From: Mesostigma viride
Taxonomy: Eukaryota > Streptophyta > Mesostigmatophyceae > Mesostigmatales > Mesostigmataceae
Direction: 5' to 3'
DNA length: 64,000 nucleotides
Assembly: GCA_009746045.1 (NCBI GenBank)
Contig: RPFO01000038.1
Span: 442,759-506,758, forward strand
Each line of letters begins with the position of its first letter. Positions within the stretch are counted from its first letter, which is position 1. The translations under genes and the position numbers were made by a program. The notes under the pieces were generated by a model. The model did no database searches and was not told the DNA's origin. It was given only the letters and a program-made list of their open reading frames with translations. This document shows positions 8,010 to 13,194 of this stretch, in pieces.

Positions 8010-9669
8010 GAGAAAAAGAAACTATATCTTGGGGACGACGATGATGATCAGCGTCGTCCGCCAGACAACAGGGCACCGGCTGATGTCGGTGCGCCTGCAT
8101 GCAATAACAACAAAACAAAAAGAAGACAAAGAAAAAGAAAACAAAAGAACAACCATGACAATACCAGCCAGGTGGAGGGTCCGGCTGCCGCGAGGCAGTC
8201 CGAACAACCCCCCTCCCCTGTGCGCCAGCCGGTGGCGGAGCCGGTTCCCCTACGGGGCACCGACCAACCCTCTTCCCCGGCGGCTGCGACAGCAGCACCC
8301 ACTGCTGGAGCAGCCATGGCGGCGGCAATGCGGCAGGAAAACAACCCCCCAGGAGGCACCGGCCCCGCGCCGGCCCCTGGGGCTTCCAGCGTAAGCAAGT
8401 CCGTTGCTTTCTTTCCCCATGCATGCTCTGATATAATGCTCAAGAGCGGTGGCTATCTTTTCAACATATCATAACCAAACAGAAAGCTATCGCTGCAGCA
8501 TGAGGAGCATAGAAACGCTCCAGCTGTTATGTGATAAAAGCACTCCTGGCCTATCCCCATCGCCGGCGGTGGGCGGCCTGGGCTGGACGGCATATGCAAA
8601 CGAGACAAGTATCTCCGTCCACCCCAACGTGACTTATCTGAATGAATGTCATGTCTTTTGAACGCAGATCTCCCCATTTTATTTGGGATGAGTGTAAGGG
8701 TATTGTTGCTTTCTTGGCAGCACAGCCTCTACCCTCTAGGGAGACTGTTGATCCTCTCTATGTCAGGGCTGAGGGCCCTTAATCAAACCCACTGCTGTCA
8801 ACTCCCTAAACATGGAGCTTGCCCAGCCGCCGCACATAATCAATAACGCATGCAGTAGTGGCAGAAGCCATTACCAAACGCATGTACTTGCGGGTAAAGA
8901 CATGGCTGGTGCTAACGCTCAAGCAGCACCGGGAGGCAATAACAAGAAACACTAACAGAAAACAAACAAACAAAACTGTTACCAAACCATGGTTGGTGTT
9001 GAGGCAGCACAGATGCTGTCCTCTCACTGCAAGCAAACAAACGAAACTGTTACCAAACCATGGTTGGTGTTGAGGCAGCACAGATGCTGTCCTCTCACTG
9101 CAAACAAACAAACGAAACTGTTACCATACCATGGTTGGTGTTGAGGCAGCACAGATGCTGTCCTCTCATTACAAGCAAACAAACGAAAATGCTACCAAAC
9201 CATGGTGGGTTTTGAGGCAGCAAAGATACTGTCCTCTCAATCAATACAATGAACAAACAAGAAAAGCTGCGATTAATTAACTAACAATAACAATACCAAC
9301 AACAGGCCCTCACAGGGCAATAACAACAACAACAACCGCCCCCAACAGGGCAACAACAACAACAACAACAACAACAACAACAACAACAACAACAACAACA
9401 ACAACAACAACAACAACAACAACAACAACAACAACAACAACAACAACAACAACAACAACAACAACAACAACAACAATAGGCAACCTGGCAACCCTGGAAG
9501 GGTCAGGTGCCTGAGGTGCTTCCAGACGGGGCACAGCCGCAACCAGTGCAACCACAACCCTACACTGGTCAACAATGTGGATCTCTGCCCAGGCTGCCAC
9601 TACACGAGGCACAACCTGGCCAGCTCCAGGCAGCCGTTGCAACAGGCCTCGCTACCCAAATCAATGTGA
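8010..9669 (+). CDS. gag-like region (structure unresolved) with CCHC zinc knuckle
   Basis: Two open pieces are visible. The first (about 8010-8474) encodes a basic, then Pro/Ala-rich segment. The second (frame open 9277-9669) encodes a poly-Asn run from the (CAA)n tract and then a nucleic-acid-binding zinc knuckle CLRCFQTGHSRNQC (C-x2-C-x4-H-x4-C, 9508-9549), followed by a second Cys/His cluster, CPGCHYTRH. This is the usual end of a retrotransposon nucleocapsid. The pieces are in different frames with stops between them. A GTAAGC after 8390 could be a splice donor, but no partner was established. The frame ends with a TGA at 9667-9669, inside the start of pol. Confidence 0.6.
8955..9240 (+). 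repeat. ~70-bp tandem repeats inside the gag region
   Basis: Four imperfect copies of a ~70-bp unit containing CCATGGTTGGTGTTGAGGCA, then GCACAGATGCTGTCCTCTCA, then a CAAACAAACGAAACTGTTAC spacer. In one frame each copy reads VEAAQMLSS or FEAAKILSS. A related segment, FEAATLLSSQ, occurs once in pol at about 9745-9775. Confidence 0.85.
9352..9477 (+). repeat. (CAA)n microsatellite within gag
   Basis: About 40 uninterrupted CAA/AAC triplets, read as poly-Asn in the frame of the zinc knuckle. Confidence 0.97.
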
Positions 9670-12664: not shown

Positions 12665-13194
12665 ATCTGATGGAAGACATCCACATCCAATGTGTCATGG
12701 ACAGCTCCATGGAGAGCAGAACAATCAATCAGATGGGGGCACGGGAATCAGGGCTGTTTTTTCTCACCAACAGGTCAGATTACATGTCCCTCACTTCCTG
12801 GTACAGCAGGCTACACCGCAGAAAACCTGGCAGCAGCAACTCAGCTGAATGTCGTGCTGTGGTGTCTGCTGCATTGCATGCTCGTTCCCTGCAGCACATG
12901 CTCACCTGGCTACAAACCCAGGCAGGCAGCACATGCAATGTTATCTCACATCTCTACACTGACAGCTTTTCTGTGATCAGTTTTCTAACCAAGAAATCTG
13001 TTTCTGCTGCTGTCCACACTGACCTGGATTGGGTGATCCTCAAACAGGAGGCAACCTACTTTTCCAGCTGGACTCATGTGGATGATGAGGACAACCCAGC
13101 AGACGCTCTAACGAAGCTGCGGGATGCTGCTGGCCAACAGTACCAGCTCCTCTTTCAGAACATGAACCCCTATGATATCAGAGTCAGTGTTTGA
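12637..13194 (+). CDS. Retrotransposon RNase H (copia type), frame-shifted from pol
   Basis: The frame is open from 12637. Its first ATG is at 12670 and it stops at 13192-13194. It shows the copia RNase H pattern: CVMDSSMESRT, then SSNSAECRAV, then LYTDSFSV, then the terminal DNPADALTKL. The protein continues naturally from the RT in a -1 register, and the join falls at the C7 run (12640-12646). It may therefore be one polyprotein with a frameshift site, a recent indel, or an assembly homopolymer error. Confidence 0.85.
   Translation: MPPLILHGLNLMEDIHIQCVMDSSMESRTINQMGARESGLFFLTNRSDYMSLTSWYSRLHRRKPGSSNSAECRAVVSAALHARSLQHMLTWLQTQAGSTCNVISHLYTDSFSVISFLTKKSVSAAVHTDLDWVILKQEATYFSSWTHVDDEDNPADALTKLRDAAGQQYQLLFQNMNPYDIRVSV

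Follow-up and report, generated by a model that had tools for sequence, protein, structure and literature searches.

A long terminal repeat (LTR) retrotransposon occupies positions 7442-14051 (6610 bp) of the 64,000-nucleotide stretch of Mesostigma viride DNA analysed here (contig RPFO01000038.1; hereafter the window). It very probably represents a lineage whose polyprotein follows the order Gag, CCHC zinc knuckle, integrase (IN), protease (PR), reverse transcriptase (RT) and RNase H (RH), with an RT-RH part of copia descent. The IN-PR-RT order is old and common to three divergent families of this one genome. The RT is copia-type, insertions are flanked by 5-bp duplications, near-identical copies are numerous, and the gag and pol frames overlap in copies in which they are not fused. 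The general set of LTR-retrotransposon features (LTRs, target-site duplication, Gag, PR, IN, RT, RH) was present, with Gag and the knuckle taken from the copies L018 and L039. We consider the lineage to be probably an undescribed variant of the Ty1/copia-type element.

Domain order in the window copy and its close copies

All parts of the element described below lie on the forward strand. The pol reading frame is open from stop to stop at 9515-12664 (1049 amino acids, or 1029 from the first ATG). It encodes an IN (9833-10789; 47% identity to the IN of sister family B), a retropepsin-like PR (11105-11410; recognised from Pfam, the family B homologue and alignment) and a copia-type RT (11759-12613; recognised from RVT_2 and hhalign). 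An earlier reading made from the sequence alone (the sequence-only reading) had placed IN, PR, RT and RH in one frame. This holds for the first three domains, whereas RH, identified by hhalign against host copia elements, is out of frame with RT in this copy (12637-13194). The CCHC knuckle CLRCFQTGHSRNQC (CX2CX4HX4C, 9508-9549) falls into a third frame (9277-9669); in the copy L018, the knuckle matched Pfam zf-CCHC_3 with E 0.012. Compared with L018, the frame of the window copy changes in the interval between knuckle and IN, just 5′ of the second zinc-binding His, and 5′ of RH.

Within IN, the D-54-D-29-E core maps to window positions 10052, 10217 and 10307 (spacing measured on L018). The zinc region noted earlier is present as a partial motif (LAMGH at 9863, HCQEC at 9965); the first His has been lost where the sequence departs from that of the other copies, which is why the HHCC pattern fails on the window copy. 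In L018 the zinc motif is intact (H-4-H-30-C-2-C), so that both the retroviral-type HHCC and the D-D-E are found there, and the D-D-E recurs in all three families. The IN end, from 10586 to about 10762, was called GPY/F-like by eye; our own pattern for this module matched neither the window copy nor L018, and Pfam gave no match to it. The PR carries its catalytic Asp at 11150, in the motif DTQA, and an LLG loop at 11339. In the RT, HGDD takes the place of YVDD at 12263.

Other genomic copies with the same order, which the sequence-only reading had proposed to look for, were readily found. A genome search with the 1029-residue protein yielded 8819 candidates, of which 45 were scored, all with 97-100% identity. 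IN, PR and RT shared one frame in 30 of 30 full-length matches (window copy included), and in 21 of these everything from the knuckle to RH did; 26 of the 30 had identical amino acid sequences over the interval that begins at the first catalytic Asp of IN and closes with RT. These 30 are the best full-length matches and hence selected for good preservation. For the PR, at least 150 genomic copies were counted, many of them in much shorter open frames; among the matches listed, the PR was identical in 150 of 150. The distance from gag to PR was constant (2455-2490 bp) in 36 of 36 PR matches, which were picked for having a gag partner while others on the same contigs were excluded, so this figure describes spacing and not the retention of gag. 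Over 914 codons, the window copy and L018 differ at 28 nucleotides and 8 amino acids (13 and 1 in RT, 1 and 0 in PR), which is suggestive of coding constraint, although the differences are too few for a firmer statement.

Divergent sister families and profile support

As profile support for the window protein was weak, divergent relatives were sought by the RT motif WHGDDQ, written with a codon choice different from that of the window family (family A). The genome contained 778 such matches versus 0 for the reversed control, a count of the RT motif and not of domain order. The six loci that were examined all encode RT and RH akin to those of the window copy (62-63% identity for L054 and L055). 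Family B was assembled from L058, which carries Gag, knuckle and IN upstream of L055, and from L055 and L056, in which the PR lies between IN and RT; in L056 the IN end, PR and RT start share one frame. Family C adjoins L054 and occupies positions 1-2030 of L057 together with L059, on the reverse strand: a knuckle is followed by a 538-amino-acid frame with IN and the start of PR (L059), and then by RT and RH, their frames broken (L057). Its RT reads LHGDD, its PR DTNS, and its IN zinc motif has C-x-C instead of C-x2-C. L054 itself is an interrupted copy of another member, next to the family C element.

The IN alignment of the three families has a conserved D-52/54-D-29/31-E. The PR of family B is 67-68% and that of family C 42% identical to the window PR. 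In a four-row PR alignment 36 columns are invariant, and the catalytic Asp, the hydrophobic frame, the glycine before the strand and the ILG-type loop (LLG in A and B, ILG in C) are conserved throughout. Because two distant sister families have the same order, the arrangement looks old.

With regard to profiles, all IN, PR and RT matches of families A-C fall below the curated Pfam cut-offs. RVT_2 is the sole Pfam match of the window protein (E 5.6e-6; 24 to 27 bits against a cut-off of 31.6), and RVT_1 gave no match at E <=10. The RT of family C matched RVT_2 with E 0.05, and its knuckle matched zf-CCHC above the cut-off (E 1.3e-5). The copia affinity claimed earlier for RT and RH was confirmed by hhalign: the RT family profile aligned to host copia RT with E 8e-9 vs E 0.67 for host gypsy RT, on which a gypsy identity of the RT was rejected, and the four RH sequences aligned colinearly to the RH of three host copia elements with E 0.0032. 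The Pfam check of the 1029-residue frame suggested by the sequence-only reading thus recovers RT, below cut-off, and neither IN nor, at a useful level, PR; the support for these two comes from the sister families B and C.

Several observations count against the domain order proposed here. No Pfam IN profile matched the window protein, and the PR piece alone (11075-11440) reached only E 0.16 with gag-asp_proteas. The IN matches to Pfam rve in families B (E 6.6e-6) and C (E 0.013) are sub-cut-off, as are those of the family B PR piece to Peptidase_A2_2 (E 0.0077) and gag-asp_proteas (E 0.018), the only families it matched; the family C PR piece alone had no Pfam match. PDB searched by sequence returned no relevant match for IN, PR or RH, and Pfam none for RNase H; a match of the RH piece to a designed TIM barrel (E 2.9e-4) was taken as spurious. 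Compared with host copia, the IN and PR profiles were not significant (P 0.14 and 0.096). The D-to-E spacing of IN is normally about 35, vs 29-31 in families A-C. The usual Gly is absent from the PR triad of all three families, which read DTQA (A), DTQA (B) and DTNS (C) in place of the D-T/S-G of clan AA; the PRs of the host copia controls read DSAA, DSAA and DTGA. Furthermore, a PR within 1.5 kb upstream of RT was seen in two of the six motif loci (L055 and L056) and was absent in L051-L054, which appear truncated or interrupted. Family C is known from one broken copy, and the IN upstream of the family B PR was read at one place only.

Insertion ends, Gag and a gag-less subfamily

The 5′ LTR (7442-7924) and the 3′ LTR (13569-14051) are identical over all 483 bp, in agreement with the sequence-only reading, and the target-site duplication ATGGT was read directly beside them on both sides (7437-7441 and 14052-14056). 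Given the identical LTRs, the window copy is a young insertion. The LTR termini are AGTTAG...CTAACT (7442-7447, 14046-14051) instead of TG...CA; ends other than TG...CA are reported for other elements in the portions of PMC3701649 and PMC5659011 drawn on here. The same LTR ends occur in three further copies, flanked by the 5-bp duplications GTTAT, CATGG and GCGGG. Five copies were tried in total, and all four readable ones, window copy included, had 5-bp duplications; L045/L046 was left out because the start of its left LTR was not found. Following the 5′ LTR we recognised no tRNA primer site, in a check made without comparison to host tRNAs, and the sequence there does not start with TGG. Likewise, no complement of at least 7 nt to the post-LTR sequence was found within the LTR that would suggest self-priming, and tRNA and Rfam scans of the window found nothing. 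The element is embedded in an array of tandem units of about 71 bp (CCATGGTGTCATCATGGCC...), which extends over both flanks (6001-7441 and 14057-15072).

Copies with long frames encode a Gag of 877 amino acids upstream of pol. A standard protease in the gag region, a finding named in advance as refuting the proposed order, was not detected in the Gag of a better-preserved copy, which had no Pfam match at E <=10 and no match to the PR pattern. Both refuting checks named in advance, this one and the profile searches, thus favoured the order, one of them weakly. The sole matches to D[TS][GAQ], SDTASLP and ADSQDL, were rejected as candidates; neither stands in a hydrophobic frame.

In the window copy, the leader and a remnant of the Gag N terminus (7925-8390; frame 7923-8474; 8129-8325 has 73% identity with the beginning of gag in L039, L041 and L043) are followed by a segment with 71-bp tandem units that replaces the Gag capsid region (8391-9270, borders approximate). 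This segment has blastn matches in L010, L011 and L012 and none in the full-length copies L039, L041, L043 and L045. The replacing sequence amounts to about 0.9 kb, and the 3′ two thirds are in common with the full-length copies. A CAA/AAC tract at 9351-9476 reads as poly-Asn or poly-Thr, depending on the frame. At least four copies (the window copy, L010, L011 and L012) form this gag-less subfamily, which has retained pol and could be the non-autonomous companion of the full-length elements. As the window copy is without capsid and has disturbed frames, it was probably mobilised in trans by the proteins of full-length copies. BARE2-like elements are gag-deficient partners of this kind. They resemble the window subfamily in that LTRs and pol are retained without a Gag capsid; the subfamily differs in that repeat-bearing sequence takes the place of Gag and in that movement in trans is something we infer.

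In L039, the gag frame overlaps the pol frame by 460 nt, and this overlap contains two G-run heptamers (4605 and 4872) in phase for a -1 shift. The CCHC knuckle is encoded 3′ of the overlap, so that unshifted Gag would be without the knuckle. In L026, L028 and L033, indels, each time at another site, have joined gag and pol into a single frame. With such copies present, the -1 shift is put forward here as an inference.

Affinities of the lineage and other features of the window

According to PMC2774666 (here and below in the portion drawn on), every Ty1/Copia element known as of 2009 has IN downstream of PR, an LLS loop marks Ty1/Copia PRs, an ILG loop most others, and Ty1/Copia INTs are without the GPY/F module. 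The three host copia control families conform, with the standard PR-IN-RT order and the LLS loop. The lineage described here shares with Ty1/copia (Pseudoviridae) the type of RT, the colinear RH, an IN before RT and the LH..GH zinc motif. It differs in the IN-PR-RT order of all 30 copies and of families B and C as opposed to PR-IN-RT-RH, in a PR loop LLG or ILG instead of LLS, and in LTR ends AG...CT. With an IN end that looks GPY/F-like by eye, it may break the rule on that module as well.

The same source lists five states of IN: downstream of pr (Ty1/Copia, Gmr1), downstream of rh, truncated and reversed (REM1), lost, and upstream of gag (Petunia vein clearing virus, PVCV). An IN between Gag and PR fits none of them. 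Gmr1-like Ty3/gypsy elements are an earlier example of a rearranged pol, with IN moved ahead of RT, but their IN follows PR and their RT is of gypsy type, whereas here IN precedes PR and the RT is copia-type. Nor does the lineage agree with Ty3/gypsy in general, as it has no gypsy-type RT and its IN lies neither after RH nor between PR and RT. The caulimovirus type represented by PVCV has the sole listed IN position upstream of PR; here, Gag and the knuckle precede IN, and the element has LTRs and a copia RT.

We are inclined, with some reserve, to regard gag-IN-PR-RT-RH as a further basic pol architecture of LTR retrotransposons, typical of an old lineage standing beside Ty1/copia, which combines a copia RT-RH with a non-copia, glycine-less retropepsin and an IN that uses AGTT...AACT ends. 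Compared with Ty1/copia, IN and PR stand in exchanged positions, which would stem from a rearrangement long ago within the element or from the uptake of a non-copia PR (and IN tail). The absence of Gly from the PR triad suggests a modified active site and not decay, because the PR of the window family was identical in 150 of 150 among the matches listed; a recent burst alone could also yield that identity.

A mosaic, in which PR and the IN tail of a Ty3/gypsy-like element were joined to a copia RT-RH by module exchange, is a serious possibility, if less likely than not. It would explain the LLG/ILG loop, assigned to non-Ty1/Copia PRs (PMC2774666), where the three host copia families have LLS, the weak Pfam matches to gag-asp_proteas and Peptidase_A2_2 and not to Pol_BBD as in host copia, and the look of the IN end. 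Against it, IN aligns colinearly with copia IN in its zinc motif (LH..MGH) and along the alignment path, albeit non-significantly (P 0.14). The GPY/F call was made by eye, with a pattern that failed to match, and the IN and PR profiles compared here were those of host copia.

The lineage could also be real but already catalogued, for instance among unnamed "Copia" entries of an algal or protist repeat library, which we think rather unlikely. The claim of an undescribed lineage is based on the open-access literature, where we found no paper on a copia order with IN before PR; Repbase, REXdb, GyDB and most subscription papers lay outside the scope of this search, and an entry there would be missed. 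The statement on all Ty1/Copia genomes known as of 2009 (PMC2774666) likewise argues for novelty. Searches for relatives elsewhere, in viral contigs (P0001, RT profile A3, IN profile A2) and genome contigs (A3), gave pattern matches, none of which was confirmed by tblastn.

It is very unlikely that the element is an ordinary copia element with a wrongly called PR, whose true protease lies elsewhere or is supplied by another element. The weak match of the window PR (E 0.16) and its triad without Gly would fit such a case, but the PR features persist across the three families, even where identity drops to 42%, the family B piece matched two different retropepsin models and nothing else in Pfam, and in the 877-residue Gag no candidate was detected. 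A recent rearrangement or assembly artefact at the window locus, to which the disturbed frames and replaced gag region of this copy might point, can be dismissed for practical purposes, since all 30 copies, on different contigs or at different places, and the divergent families B and C have the same order.

The cycle of the element most likely runs as follows. Gag and a Gag-Pol fusion would assemble, Pol arising through a -1 shift where the gag and pol frames overlap. The PR between IN and RT would free itself and cut out IN upstream and RT-RH downstream. RT-RH would copy the RNA into cDNA, and IN would insert this cDNA, ending AGTT...AACT, at target cuts staggered by 5 bp.

The order of the pol domains separates the LTR superfamilies, and annotation pipelines sort by it. 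With an RT below the Pfam cut-off and an IN and PR without significant match, an element that combines a copia RT with IN before PR would be misfiled or missed. The arrangement also indicates that the protease need not lead Pol, which bears on polyprotein cleavage in retroelements and retroviruses. At least three divergent families in one genome keep this order, one of them young and abundant, and the order is therefore compatible with movement. The glycine-less PR triad is a testable oddity by itself.

Elsewhere in the window, overlapping open frames of 524, 541 and 262 amino acids at 18615-22100, the first two without a Pfam match, are perhaps another mobile element. The open frame at 43119-44657 contains an Exostosin GT47 domain (E 1.5e-12) and is probably a host glycosyltransferase gene.
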